Origin: Clostridia bacterium
Lineage (GTDB): Bacteria > Bacillota > Clostridia > Oscillospirales > CAG-272
Length of the DNA: 32,495 nucleotides
NCBI GenBank assembly: GCA_017396225.1
Contig: JAFQMP010000020.1
Span: forward strand, 1 to 32,495
Reading direction: 5' to 3'
Shown here piece by piece: positions 4,438 to 29,697 of the stretch. Below the pieces are notes generated by a model that worked only from the letters and a program-made list of their open reading frames with translations, searched no databases and had not been told where the DNA came from. The translations under genes were made by a program, and so were the position numbers. How positions within the stretch are numbered: the first letter of the stretch is position 1; every line of letters begins with the position of its first letter.

Positions 4438-4452
4438 AGGAGGTAAGCTGAT

Positions 4453-12523: not shown

Positions 12524-12552
12524 TTGACAAAGCATAGATAATATTATAAAAT
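12524..12552 (+). promoter_or_regulatory. Sigma-A type promoter for the DUF1538 operon
   Basis: TTGACA at 12524-12529 and TAAAAT at 12547-12552 with a 17-base spacer, in an AT-rich stretch. It lies about 40 bases before the chosen ATG at 12593, so an in-frame ATG at 12554 would be at or before the transcription start and is rejected. No convincing promoter for the divergent DUF3343 gene was found in this 153-base intergenic region. Confidence 0.7.
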
Positions 12553-12592
12553 AATGTATATACTTACGCGCCATGCGGGAAGGGAGAATCGT

Positions 12593-14119
12593 ATGCTGAA
12601 GATATTGCTGCACAAGTGCAGGGAAGCGCTGATTTCGGTGCTGCCCGTCACGTTGATTGTGCTTTTGCTGCACCTGACACCGCTTGTTTCTCTGACCTCG
12701 CGTGAGCTGATTGCCTTCCTTGTTTCCGCGCTTTTGCTGGTGGTCGGCATCGGGCTTTTCAATCTGGGTGCCGATATTGCCATGACGCCGATGGGCGTAC
12801 AGGTGGGCTCGGGTCTTTCCAAATCCCGTAAAATGGGTCTGCTGCTCTCGGTCAGCTTTCTCCTTGGTCTGCTGATTACGGTTGCCGAGCCTGACCTTTC
12901 GGTGCTTGCGGCGCAGGTCGCCGCCGCTGTGAACGGCACGGCGTTGATTTTGGCTGTCGGTATCGGCGTCGGCATTTTTTTGGTGCTGGCGATTCTCCGC
13001 ATCGTCACCAAAACGGGGCTTTCGCAGATGCTGCTTATCTTTTATATGCTGATTTTTGCGTTCGCTGCGCTGCTTCTGGAGCGCGGAAACGGTGCGATGC
13101 TCGCCCTTTCCTTTGATTCGGGCGGCGTGACAACGGGGCCGATTACCGTGCCCTTTATCATGGCACTTGGTGCGGGTATTGCCGCAACGCTCGGTGGTAA
13201 AAACGCGGGCGAAAACAGCTTTGGTCTGGTCGCGCTTTGCTCAATCGGCCCTGTGCTTGCGGTGCTTGCGATTGGTCTGCTTGCCAATGGCGACATTATT
13301 TACGAGCTGCCCGATTATTCGGTCGAGGCAAATCTCGGGGCAGCCCTTCCTGCCGTTATCCTGAAGACGGTGCGCGAGGTTGGTGCGGCGCTGCTGCTGC
13401 TTGTCGCATTTTTTGCAATGATTCAGTTTGTGCTGCTCCGCTTGCCAAGGCAGCGCCTGGTGCGCATTGGCGTCGGTATTATATATACCTTCCTCGGTCT
13501 TGTTATCTTCCTGGTGGCGGTGACGGTTGGCTTTATGCCCGTCGGTTACCGCATCGGCTATGACCTTGCTGCAGCAAACAAGCCCTTCCTTGTCATTATG
13601 GGATTTGTGCTTGGATTAGTGGTTGTTCTTGCAGAGCCCGCCATTCACGTCTTGAAAGGACAGGTGGAAGAAATTACCAACGGCTCGGTCAGCAAGCGCG
13701 CGATGATGCTGGCGCTCTCTATCGGTGTCGGTGTATCTATCGGGCTTTCGATGCTGCGCATTATTCTGGGATTCAGTATTCTTTACTATCTGATTCCGGG
13801 TTACTTTATCTCGCTGGGACTTTCCTTCTTTGTTCCGCGTCTGTATACCGCCATCGCCTTCGATTCGGGCGGCGTTGCCAGCGGTCCCCTGACCTCAAGC
13901 TTTATTCTGCCGCTTGCCATTGGCGCCTGTGTGTCGCTTTCGGGCGCATCGGCGGTGCTTGAAAATGCCTTTGGCATTGTGGCAATGGTTGCGATGACGC
14001 CCCTGATTACCATTCAGGTCATGGGCTTCCGTGCCATTGTGGCGGGCAAGATGCGTGACAGCATTATGATGAAGCATATTCTTGATGCTGATGATGAGGC
14101 GATTATTGATTTTATGTAA
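12593..14119 (+). CDS. DUF1538 family polytopic membrane protein, putative transporter
   Basis: 508 residues from the ATG at 12593, which follows GGGAAGGGAG. Very hydrophobic, about 12 membrane helices. The protein is an internal duplication: AEP at 98-100 and 348-350, FDSGGV-x-x-GP at 174-183 and 423-432, and ENSFGLVA/ENAFGIVA at 207-214 and 457-464, each offset by about 250 residues. The acidic FDSGGV motif in a membrane setting suggests a conserved ion- or substrate-binding site in each half. DUF1538 is uncharacterised as far as I know. The two PII-like genes directly downstream suggest a transporter controlled by PII-type proteins, as with AmtB-GlnK or SbtA-SbtB. The substrate is unknown. 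Confidence 0.85.
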   Translation: MLKILLHKCREALISVLPVTLIVLLLHLTPLVSLTSRELIAFLVSALLLVVGIGLFNLGADIAMTPMGVQVGSGLSKSRKMGLLLSVSFLLGLLITVAEPDLSVLAAQVAAAVNGTALILAVGIGVGIFLVLAILRIVTKTGLSQMLLIFYMLIFAFAALLLERGNGAMLALSFDSGGVTTGPITVPFIMALGAGIAATLGGKNAGENSFGLVALCSIGPVLAVLAIGLLANGDIIYELPDYSVEANLGAALPAVILKTVREVGAALLLLVAFFAMIQFVLLRLPRQRLVRIGVGIIYTFLGLVIFLVAVTVGFMPVGYRIGYDLAAANKPFLVIMGFVLGLVVVLAEPAIHVLKGQVEEITNGSVSKRAMMLALSIGVGVSIGLSMLRIILGFSILYYLIPGYFISLGLSFFVPRLYTAIAFDSGGVASGPLTSSFILPLAIGACVSLSGASAVLENAFGIVAMVAMTPLITIQVMGFRAIVAGKMRDSIMMKHILDADDEAIIDFM

Positions 14120-14131
14120 GGAGGTGCACTG

Positions 14132-14569
14132 ATGCCAACGACAGCAACCAAAAAGCCGCGCGCAGGCGCGGTGCGCCGCGCCGCACCCAAAAGCGAGGTG
14201 CCCGCAGGGCATAAAAAGGCACCGCAGAAATTAAAGCTGCTCGTCACCGTCGTGCCGCGCCGAAAGACCGAATATTTTATGGATTTGATTCAATCCTTTG
14301 ACGTCAATATGCAGTTTTGCTCTGCCGCGCGCGGCACGGCAAATTCGGATATTCTCGCGATGATGGGTCTTGAGGACAATGAAAAGCGCGTGATTTTCAG
14401 TGTCATCGGTGAGGAACGCGCACCGCAGGCGCTGGCTGCACTCGGCGAGAAATTCCGCACCATTAAAAACGCGAAGGGGATTGCTATGACTGTGCCCCTC
14501 ACGGGCGTGATTGGTGTATCAATCTATCAATTTTTAGCAAATCACCGTAAAGGAGGAAAGGCAACATGA
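14132..14569 (+). CDS. PII-like protein with basic N-terminal extension
   Basis: 145 residues; the ATG follows AAGGAGGTG. Residues 1-32 are a basic, Ala/Pro/Lys-rich, probably disordered extension. Residues 33-135 look like a ferredoxin-like PII domain: a first strand LKLLVTVVPRRK, ARGTANSD at 66-73, a strand KRVIFSVIGEE, and the C-terminal AKGIAMTVPLTGVIGVS. It shares the RGTAN and GIAM-x-x-P-x-x-GV-x-G motifs with the next gene. The canonical PII T-loop with the uridylylated tyrosine is not seen. Likely a regulatory subunit binding the DUF1538 protein or a nucleotide; inferred from context. Its stop overlaps the next start as ATGA. Confidence 0.7.
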   Translation: MPTTATKKPRAGAVRRAAPKSEVPAGHKKAPQKLKLLVTVVPRRKTEYFMDLIQSFDVNMQFCSAARGTANSDILAMMGLEDNEKRVIFSVIGEERAPQALAALGEKFRTIKNAKGIAMTVPLTGVIGVSIYQFLANHRKGGKAT

Positions 14570-14886
14570 GCTTTGACTATGAGCTGATTGTATGTATCGT
14601 GAATGCGGGCTTTTCCGATGCCGTTATGGAGGCTGCCCGCGCCTGCGGCGCAGGTGGCGGTACCGTCATTCATGCACGCGGTACGGCCAACAAGGAGGCA
14701 GAAACCTTCTTCAAAATCACCATTCAGCCCGAAAAGGAGGCTGTGATGATTCTGGTCCCCACCGATATCAAGGACGATGTATTGCACGCCCTTTATCAGA
14801 AGGTCGGCTTGCAGACCCCGGGACAGGGGATTGCCATGTCGCTCCCCGTGGACGGTGTTGTTGGCCTGCCCGGAGAGAACACATAA
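14566..14886 (+). CDS. PII-like protein, compact
   Basis: 106 residues, about the size of a PII monomer. Pattern: first strand YELIVCIVNAGFSDAVMEAA, then the GAGGGTVIHARGTANKEAE segment, strand FFKITIQPEKEAVMILVP, helix DDVLHALYQKVG, then PGQGIAMSLPVDGVVGL. This follows the PII order, where the GxGxIxxxPV block contributes to the nucleotide site. It has no standard T-loop tyrosine and is shorter there. AAAGGAGG lies before the start, within the end of the previous gene. A heteromeric pair with that protein is plausible but unproven. Confidence 0.75.
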   Translation: MSFDYELIVCIVNAGFSDAVMEAARACGAGGGTVIHARGTANKEAETFFKITIQPEKEAVMILVPTDIKDDVLHALYQKVGLQTPGQGIAMSLPVDGVVGLPGENT

Positions 14887-14893
14887 AGAGAAA

Positions 14894-14919
14894 AGCGCCG
14901 CAGCCTTGGCTGCGGCGCT
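14894..14919 (+). terminator. Hairpin ending the DUF1538/PII operon
   Basis: A perfect 12-bp inverted repeat AGCGCCGCAGCC-tt-GGCTGCGGCGCT lies eight bases after the last stop codon. The T run that should follow is weak (TTCATTTTA), so termination may be partial, although the stem is very GC-rich. Confidence 0.7.
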
Positions 14920-14963
14920 CGCGTTCATTTTATGAAGGTTAGATGACTTTTTTGAAATAACTC

Positions 14964-27056: not shown

Positions 27057-27682
27057 AAAGCCTTGTTTATCGCATCGTCCGCTTTATCGTCTGGCTGCCT
27101 GTTAAGCTTCTGTTTCGTGTGCATTGGCAGGACCGCGGAAACGAGCCCTTGCCCGAGTCGGGCCCCTATCTTGTCTGTGCCAATCACCAGACCGCGCTTG
27201 ACGTGATTTTTCTGGCGACTGTTTTGCGCCGTCAGCAGCCGCACTTTATGGCGAAGGCAGAGCTTTTCAAGGTGCCCGTGCTCGGGTGGCTTATCAGAAA
27301 GCTCGGTGCCTTTCCCGTGGCGCGCGGCAAGGGTGACGTGGGTGCCATTAAGCACGCCATTAAGCTTCTCGAGGGCGGTCGCTCCGTGGGCGTATTTCCG
27401 CAGGGCACGCGTATGCCGGGGCGCGAGCTGCGCGATTGCAGCGTGAAGGCGGGCGCAGGTATGATTGCCGCCCGTGCGGGTGCGCAGGTGCTGCCTGTCT
27501 ATATCAAAATGAAAAAGCGCAGCTGGCGCTTCCTTCGCCGTGTTGACGTGATTGTCGGCAAGCCCATTCCCTTTGCCGATTTTCACTACAATCCCGCGGC
27601 ATCGGGAGAATATGCACGTATTACGGGTGAAATCTATGAGCAGATTTGCCTGCTTGACGAGGCGGACAGATGCCAGAGGTAA
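27053..27682 (+). CDS. plsC: 1-acyl-sn-glycerol-3-phosphate acyltransferase
   Basis: 209 residues with an N-terminal hydrophobic segment (5-23) that attaches it to the membrane. The acyltransferase motifs are visible: NHQTALD with H45 and D50 (HX4D), and FPQGTRMPG at 115-123. The second motif normally reads FPEGTR; here Gln replaces Glu. It makes phosphatidic acid from lysophosphatidic acid. It is sandwiched between cmk (4-base overlap) and ispH-rpsA (13-base overlap). Confidence 0.92.
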   Translation: MKSLVYRIVRFIVWLPVKLLFRVHWQDRGNEPLPESGPYLVCANHQTALDVIFLATVLRRQQPHFMAKAELFKVPVLGWLIRKLGAFPVARGKGDVGAIKHAIKLLEGGRSVGVFPQGTRMPGRELRDCSVKAGAGMIAARAGAQVLPVYIKMKKRSWRFLRRVDVIVGKPIPFADFHYNPAASGEYARITGEIYEQICLLDEADRCQR

Positions 27683-29697
27683 TGATTGCAAAAAATGCGG
27701 GCTTTTGCCCCGGTGTCAAGGCGGCGACCGACCGTCTGGAGCGCGTCATTCTCGCGCGCCGTGCGGGGGAACGTATTTTCACCCTGGGATATCTGATTCA
27801 CAATGAGGAGTATAACGAGGGACTTGCCGCACGCGGCGTTGTCGCCGTTTCGGTTGATGAGATTGATGCGCTGGCTGCGGAGGCTACCGAGCAAGCCCCC
27901 GTCACGCTCCTGATTCGTGCCCACGGTGTCAGACGTGAGGTGAGCGAGGCGCTCGCGCGCTATGCTGCCGCAAACCCCGCCTTTACGGTCATTGATTGCA
28001 CCTGTCCCTTTGTGACAAAAATTCACCGCATCGCGACCGACCTTTCGGAGAAAGGGGCGGATACTCACGTGTTTATCTGCATCGGAAATGAGAAGCACCC
28101 CGAGGTGGAGGGCTTTATGAGCTGCTTTGCGGGTGAAAAGTATGTGTTTGTCGATGCACAGGCGCTGGAAAAGGCGCTTCAAGGCTGGCTTTTCCCCCTT
28201 ATTTCGGCAAAAATTCCCGCAATTGTCGCGCAAACGACGCAGAATCTGATTGAATGGAAAAAATGTCAAAAACTTTTCAAAAAGGTCTGTACAAATGCGT
28301 TAATTTTTGATACAATATGTAATGTTACCGATGTGAGACAGACTGAGGCGGCTACGCTTGCCGCAGCGTGTGACGGTATGGTTGTCATCGGCGGTGTCAG
28401 AAGCTCCAATACTGCAAAGCTTTATGATATCTGTCGCGCGCACTGCGCCGACACCCTGCGCGTGACCGACAGCTCGCAGCTGTCCGCCGCACATTCGTAT
28501 TCATTAACCCATCGCAAAGTGGGTATAGTGGCGGGTGCATCGACCCCGCGAGAAATCATTGAGGAGGTATATAGAACAATGACTGAAGCAGAAAACTTTG
28601 CGAAAATGCTTGAAGAGACTGAAGTCAAAAATTTACATACAGGAGCAATCGTTACCGGTACCGTGTCCCACGTTTCGGACACTGAGCTGCAGCTGGACCT
28701 TGGCGCCGGCGTGACCGGCTACATCAAGGCCGACCGCGTAACCGACGACCCCTCTGTAAAGCTGACTGAGGCCTTCAAGGTAGGTGACGTTATCGAGGCG
28801 AAGGTAATTCGCGTCAGCGACATCGAGGGTGTTGCTGAGCTTGACAAGCGTCGTGTTGACTCCGGCAAGAACTGGGAGAAGATTGTTGCAGCGAAGGAGG
28901 AGGGTGCCGTGCTTGAGGCAACCGTTTCCGATGTTGTAAAGGGCGGCGTTACCGTATTTGTTTACGGCGTTCGCGTATTCATTCCCGCTTCTCAGACCGG
29001 TGTGCCGAAGGACGGCGACCTCGCTCCCCTGAAGGGTCAGACCGTCAAGTTCAAGGTTATCGAGACCAAGGAGCAGGGCCACAAGGCTATCGGTTCTATC
29101 CGTGTTGTGCTGCGTGAGGAGCGCCGCGCGGCTGAGGACGCCTTCTGGGGCGAGATTGAGGAGGGCAAGACCTACACCGGTGTTGTCAAGAGCATGACCT
29201 CTTACGGTGCATTTGTTGACCTTGGCGGCGTAGACGGCATGGTTCACACCACCGAGCTTTCCTGGAAGCACATCAAGTCCCCCGCAGAGGTTGTTTCCGT
29301 TGGCGAGACCATCACGGTATTCGTGAAGTCCTTCGACCGCGAGAAGCGCCGCATCTCCCTTGGCTACAAGACCGAGGAGTCGAACCCCTGGTTCATCTTC
29401 ACCGGCAAGTACCAGGTAGGTGACGTTGTTCCCGTAAAGATTGTCAGCATGATGCCCTTCGGTGCATTTGCGGAAATCGTTGACGGTGTAGATGGTCTGA
29501 TTCACATTTCCCAGATTGCCATGACCCGCATCGGCAAGCCCGAGGATGTGCTGGAAATCGGCCAGAGCATTGACGCAAAAATCATTGAGATTGACAGCGA
29601 GCGCGAGAAGGTCAGCCTTTCTATCCGTGCCCTGCTGGAGGAGGTTGCTGCCGAGGCTGCCGAGGAAGCAGCAGAGGCACCTGCTACCGAGGAATAA
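27670..29697 (+). CDS. ispH-rpsA: Fusion of 4-hydroxy-3-methylbut-2-enyl diphosphate reductase (IspH) and ribosomal protein S1
   Basis: 675 residues. Residues 1-300 are IspH, the last enzyme of the MEP pathway, with 4Fe-4S ligands C13 (GFCPGVK), C112 (CTCPFVTK) and C217 (TICNVT), plus H44, H143 and E145 (HPEVEG). Residues 304-675 are an S1-like protein with four S1 domains (about 318-384, 402-470, 487-557, 572-642) and an acidic tail. This fusion is known in Clostridia. The start at 27670 overlaps plsC and has GAGG seven bases upstream. Codon use changes near 28580: the S1 half uses the ribosomal-gene style while the IspH half does not. GGAGG and an ATG at 28579 could start S1 separately. Confidence 0.95.
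   Translation: MPEVMIAKNAGFCPGVKAATDRLERVILARRAGERIFTLGYLIHNEEYNEGLAARGVVAVSVDEIDALAAEATEQAPVTLLIRAHGVRREVSEALARYAAANPAFTVIDCTCPFVTKIHRIATDLSEKGADTHVFICIGNEKHPEVEGFMSCFAGEKYVFVDAQALEKALQGWLFPLISAKIPAIVAQTTQNLIEWKKCQKLFKKVCTNALIFDTICNVTDVRQTEAATLAAACDGMVVIGGVRSSNTAKLYDICRAHCADTLRVTDSSQLSAAHSYSLTHRKVGIVAGASTPREIIEEVYRTMTEAENFAKMLEETEVKNLHTGAIVTGTVSHVSDTELQLDLGAGVTGYIKADRVTDDPSVKLTEAFKVGDVIEAKVIRVSDIEGVAELDKRRVDSGKNWEKIVAAKEEGAVLEATVSDVVKGGVTVFVYGVRVFIPASQTGVPKDGDLAPLKGQTVKFKVIETKEQGHKAIGSIRVVLREERRAAEDAFWGEIEEGKTYTGVVKSMTSYGAFVDLGGVDGMVHTTELSWKHIKSPAEVVSVGETITVFVKSFDREKRRISLGYKTEESNPWFIFTGKYQVGDVVPVKIVSMMPFGAFAEIVDGVDGLIHISQIAMTRIGKPEDVLEIGQSIDAKIIEIDSEREKVSLSIRALLEEVAAEAAEEAAEAPATEE
28288..28316 (+). 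promoter_or_regulatory. Possible internal promoter within the IspH coding part
   Basis: TGTACA at 28288-28293 and TACAAT at 28311-28316 with a 17-base spacer, lying in an unusually AT-rich patch (about 28256-28330) of an otherwise GC-rich coding region. If active it would give an mRNA for the S1 half with a leader of about 260 bases. Confidence 0.35.
28561..28581 (+). promoter_or_regulatory. Internal ribosome binding site and ATG at the S1 junction
   Basis: GAGGAGG at 28561-28567 is followed after 11 bases by an in-frame ATG at 28579, exactly at the border of the IspH and S1 parts. Starting there gives MTEAENFAKMLEE and a free 372-residue S1 protein. The same bases encode IIEEVYRTM in the fusion, so the signal may be partly due to coding. 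Confidence 0.5.

Follow-up and report, generated by a model that had tools for sequence, protein, structure and literature searches.

Introduction

PII proteins are known chiefly from the control of ammonium and carbon, and in the AmtB-GlnK and SbtA-SbtB systems the gene for a PII-type protein lies next to that of the membrane transporter to which the protein is dedicated. Other arrangements have also been described. PII-NG adjoins CzcABC, a proton/cation antiporter (PMC7726332), and NifI1 and NifI2, two different PII proteins encoded side by side, are both required to switch a single target (PMC9765008). A separate line of work concerns the membrane protein family DUF1538, whose members UmpA and UmpB from Halomonas zhaodongensis form a Na+(Li+,K+)/H+ antiporter with the preference Na+ > K+ > Li+; UmpAB works as a heterodimer in which both halves are needed, and the subclone that complemented E. 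coli held umpA and umpB only (PMC5484666). The terms searched for PII and for antiparallel topology gave no match in that paper, and no paper linking DUF1538 to PII turned up in the open-access literature searched. In another family, DUF606, dual-topology single genes have given rise to opposite pairs and then to fusions (PMC3962082).

Here we describe a gut bacterium operon from a 32,495-nucleotide stretch of Clostridia DNA (the window), in which a membrane protein of two DUF1538 domains is followed by two PII-like proteins, P1 and P2. The operon resembles AmtB-GlnK and SbtA-SbtB in that PII-type proteins are encoded beside a transporter to which they appear dedicated, but the transporter belongs to another family, for which the PDB offers no clear fold match, the PII-like proteins are two rather than one, and there is no sign of a nitrogen or bicarbonate context. 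It shares with PII-NG/CzcABC a PII-like protein adjoining a putative proton/cation antiporter, although CzcABC is a metal pump of another family, acts on divalent metals and has one PII protein. Like NifI1/NifI2, the two PII-like proteins are adjacent and different; however, the NifI target is nitrogenase rather than a transporter, and its control is reversed by 2-oxoglutarate. UmpAB belongs to the same Pfam family and likewise consists of paired homologous halves, but in the window the halves are fused and accompanied by two PII-like proteins. Both DUF606 and the SMR family (EmrE) include a single dual-topology gene and an opposite pair within one family, and DUF606 also includes a fused protein (PMC3962082), but these are other families, and DUF1538 has in addition a PII-like partner whose copy number tracks the duplication.

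Organization of the operon and its surroundings

Three open reading frames on the plus strand, all present in the window, make up the operon. Upstream of them on the same strand lies a sigma-70-like promoter, TTGACA-17-TAAAAT at 12524-12552, which agrees with the consensus at 11 of 12 positions and which, by consensus match only, bears out the promoter proposed in an earlier sequence-only reading of this DNA. The membrane protein had been listed as an open reading frame from 12554, a start that is unlikely because only 1 nt separates that ATG from the end of the -10 box (12547-12552). Its start is probably the ATG at 12593, giving a product of 508 aa encoded by 12593-14119, since GGGAG stands 6 nt upstream and the resulting N-terminus agrees with the DUF1538 family consensus. 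P1 (14132-14569, plus strand) and P2 (14566-14886, plus strand) are each preceded by a strong Shine-Dalgarno sequence, and they do overlap by ATGA, at 14566-14569, as had been pointed out. The 12-pair G+C-rich stem at 14893-14920, assigned to no strand, had been taken for a terminator, but it is weak in that role for this operon because its T-run lies on the minus-strand side. An Rfam search gave no credible RNA leader in the window.

The identified neighbours encode ribosomal proteins, SecY, adenylate kinase, RpoA, a class-V aminotransferase, a Se/S-carrier-like protein, DUF5685, DnaJ and others. None of them has a functional link to the operon, and none is a nitrogen-assimilation gene, in agreement with the earlier remark that such genes are absent nearby. 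At 27670-29697 the window also encodes S1 RNA-binding domains fused to LytB (IspH).

P1 and P2 as PII-like proteins

The proposal that both small proteins are of PII type is supported by profile searches for P2 and by the predicted fold and the relatives for P1. Against the Pfam P-II profile, P2 scores 23.1 bits (E 9.5e-5), under the gathering score of 25, and all 36 of its aligned relatives match (best 3.3e-8). A P2 profile also picks out PII chains among PDB entries (best 1.7e-6), and it is by this match, rather than by a model of its own, that P2 is placed in the PII superfamily. P1 alone gives no match to Pfam P-II, while 25 of its 41 relatives do (best 2e-5). The AlphaFold model of P1 (pLDDT 78) has the bab-bab ferredoxin-like fold of the superfamily, with the T-loop between strands 2 and 3, and its best 50 PDB fold matches are PII, PII-like or CutA proteins, with a few titled only 'unknown function'. 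The nearest folds include those of CPII, TTHA0516, PstA, SbtB, PotN and GlnK, and solved c-di-AMP complexes exist for two of these, SbtB and PstA. Ahead of its PII fold, P1 carries an N-terminal tail (residues 1-33, window 14132-14230) that is K/R-rich and varies in length.

P2 retains GAxGGT, RGT, an invariant Lys and PGxGIAF and resembles the single PII-like protein of loci with a single DUF1538 domain; its most conserved segments are those that in PII proteins line the pocket and contact the ligand. In P1, GAxGGT and the Glu that follows RGT are gone, GT and GIAF remain, and the two proteins carry different residues at most pocket positions. In canonical PII proteins the B-loop Lys and a C-terminal RxR belong to the ATP/2-oxoglutarate site. 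In P2 the Lys is aligned to an Ile and the C-terminal Arg residues are missing, which sets P2 apart from canonical GlnB/GlnK; because of these losses, canonical ATP/2-oxoglutarate binding should not be assumed for it.

The DUF1538 membrane protein and the orientation of its halves

That the membrane protein is a duplicated DUF1538 protein is well borne out: PF07556 matches it in two stretches with 407.8 bits against a gathering score of 22.6 (E 9.5e-123). The NCBIfam models for UmpA (E 3.5e-42, 144.4 of 490 bits) and UmpB (E 5.2e-35, 121.1 of 500 bits) also match, below their equivalog cut-offs, so that by sequence the protein is related to both UmpA and UmpB but is not called an equivalog of either. 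Its substrate had been called unknown; since the Halomonas pair of the same family is a Na+(Li+,K+)/H+ antiporter (PMC5484666), it is not wholly so. The AF2 model of the protein is of good quality by its own scores (pLDDT 82.8, pTM 0.84), and searches of the PDB by sequence, Foldseek (best E 0.012) and VIA-align (Z <=4.0) gave no clear fold match, which is not proof of a new fold.

Charge bias, counted as K+R in alternating loops mapped on window domain 1, is opposite in the two halves. The UmpA-like domain 1 (12596-13288) has a bias of +6 in the window copy, indicating an N-in/C-out orientation, and the UmpB-like domain 2 (13403-14041) has -5, indicating N-out/C-in. Among fused proteins, domain 1 gives +6.4 and is positive in 70 of 70, and domain 2 gives -7.0 and is negative in 99 of 99; separate pairs show +3.1 and -5.1, and single-domain members 0.09 with a spread from -5 to 3 (n=11). 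We infer that the two halves sit oppositely in the membrane, and together with the near-zero bias of single-domain members this suggests a series from dual-topology proteins to pairs to fusions. In a tree of the domains, the UmpA type stands apart from the UmpB type, and most single-domain members form a clade of their own. One locus, L144, has three DUF1538 domains scored in one open reading frame.

Pairing of DUF1538 with PII-like proteins across genomes

DUF1538 is present in 101 of 299 genomes of the phylum, and the PII-like family, at 1e-6, in 109. Both occur together in 100 genomes, DUF1538 occurs alone in 1, and at E<=1e-25 none of the 299 has the PII-like family without DUF1538, so the genomic pairing is near-obligate. 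The genes of the two families are adjacent at nearly every locus. With D for DUF1538, p for a PII-like domain and a hyphen for fusion, the architectures are D-D p-p (50 loci), D-D p p (23), D D p-p (14), D D p (9), D p (9), D D p p (5) and a few odd cases. Another 87 loci, mostly from near relatives, have D-D p p in 72, the rest being mostly at contig edges or on plasmids, and about 29 more mostly agree with the same architectures. A repeated search of the phylum gave mostly what the first had given. Copy numbers thus run in parallel: a single D goes with one p, a fused D-D with two, and separate D D with one or two, and the two p of fused D-D loci are often fused to each other. Two PII-like partners, which had been regarded as a variation, are therefore the usual state for fused DUF1538. 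Exceptions to the rule are L146 and L214, both cut by contig ends, L184, with one PII domain only, L029, with a partial DUF1538 frame, and L101 (genome G275), where the DUF1538 pair has no adjacent PII and a PII pair lies on contig C77.

The three-gene order recurs outside this genome, in the 29 relatives first examined, across the phylum, and on alphaproteobacterial plasmids. Evidence from Pseudomonadota rests on plasmid records, those of Methylocystis and Chelativorans having D D p; plasmids of several Clostridia have D-D p-p. In the plasmid records the small proteins are automatically annotated 'P-II family nitrogen regulator'.

Some loci have further features. L263 has a D p set beside a D-D p-p set, and an RNase P RNA gene lies near the DUF1538 operon in L075, L082, L130, L138 and L147. 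L159, L161, L162, L195 and others are titled Bacteroidales, Bacteroidia or Fibrobacter while their operons share about 70% identity with Clostridia operons, and these record titles are probably wrong.

Discussion

The reading that we favour, and consider reasonably probable from comparative sequence evidence, is that P1 and P2 form a hetero-oligomer which, responding to an adenine nucleotide, gates a cation/proton antiporter. The operon would encode a UmpAB-type monovalent-cation/proton antiporter, one chain with two DUF1538 domains inserted oppositely as their charge suggests, together with its own cytosolic regulator. P1 and P2, translated from one coupled message, would most likely form a joint assembly that binds the antiporter from the cytosolic side and lowers or switches transport. 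The ligand would be an adenine nucleotide (ATP, ADP, AMP or c-di-AMP) bound mainly by P2, and P1, in which the pocket is incomplete, seems to be a partner with a structural or specialised role. The PII component is more likely a regulator, acting as an inhibitor or tuner, than a needed subunit, given that in E. coli the Halomonas antiporter was active with no PII co-cloned. The function would lie in Na+/K+/pH homeostasis, not nitrogen. Much of the sequence-only reading is kept in this proposal, namely the PII-like pair, the conserved order and the heteromer, while two of its points are revised by the antiport activity known for the family and by two PII proteins being usual for fused DUF1538.

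It is conceivable, but in our view unlikely, that P1 and P2, instead of gating the transporter, diffuse from it and signal cation, pH or energy state to other targets, for which GlnK, sequestered by AmtB, offers an analogue. PII proteins often have several targets, and with no other PII detected in the genome this one could serve several; however, the strictness with which P1 and P2 accompany DUF1538, and their matching copy number, point to the transporter as the relevant partner. We give a similarly low probability to P1 and P2 being separate homo-oligomers with two ligands that act independently on the same transporter. Both are PII-like and they differ at most pocket positions, as such a division would have it, but natural P1-P2 fusions in many relatives suggest that P1 and P2 touch or assemble together, which lends support to the heteromer that had been raised earlier, and the ATGA coupling likewise favours one complex. 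Moreover, in the NifI1 and NifI2 pair a single switch requires both proteins (PMC9765008).

Far less probable still is nitrogen regulation, in which the substrate of the membrane protein would be a nitrogen compound and 2-oxoglutarate would be the signal for P1 and P2. The automatic annotation as nitrogen regulators speaks for it, but the single tested activity of the family is cation/proton antiport, the canonical B-loop Lys and C-terminal Arg residues are absent, and no nitrogen-assimilation gene is among the identified neighbours. Because neither AmtB nor a canonical PII was detected in the genome, an 89% complete draft, nitrogen control is unlikely and we rejected it as the main reading. 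A strong canonical PII occurs in 1 of 21 genomes of the genus. This only strong match (G007:C63:19168-19482) falls within an open frame of 588 aa that is possibly an AmtB-GlnK fusion.

For the signal in the favoured reading, gating by P1-P2, there is a hint that the leading candidate is an adenine nucleotide, which may be c-di-AMP. The genome encodes a c-di-AMP cyclase. This nucleotide has ties to potassium homeostasis, and in Bacillus it is bound by the PII-like DarA (PMC7857571). Further, a c-di-AMP riboswitch stands immediately upstream on the same strand in two of about 135 loci scanned, which belong to different families: in L090 it spans 4598-4471, with a clear terminator after it and the open reading frame starting at 4452, and in L137 it spans 4696-4549, before 4498. 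These riboswitches hint at K+/osmotic control. One in L068 was not counted as operon control; it lies after the operon, before an open reading frame that by sequence is asparagine-synthase-like.

Several observations count against gating by a P1-P2 complex. PII proteins are usually trimers and the antiporter would be a pseudo-dimer, so that the stoichiometry of a complex does not follow directly. No DUF1538-PII fusion was seen in the surveyed loci, P2 lacks the canonical ATP-site residues, the genome is a draft, and the c-di-AMP riboswitch is absent from the window and found in so few of the loci scanned.

A broader proposal would take DUF1538 proteins in general as antiparallel antiporters with a near-obligate PII lid that has been duplicated and fused along with them, and the asymmetric P1-P2 as gating by c-di-AMP or adenylate charge; this we put forward tentatively, regarding it as possible rather than probable. 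On the sequence evidence, PII proteins probably also gate ion antiporters. If this is true, PII control reaches beyond the uptake of ammonium and bicarbonate to Na+/K+/pH homeostasis, and does so in bacteria where a nitrogen-type PII may be lacking altogether. The one-copy, two-copy and fused states of both partners would offer a natural series for the co-evolution of an antiparallel transporter with its regulator, and a probable function would be gained for many proteins that at present carry the annotation 'P-II family nitrogen regulator'.
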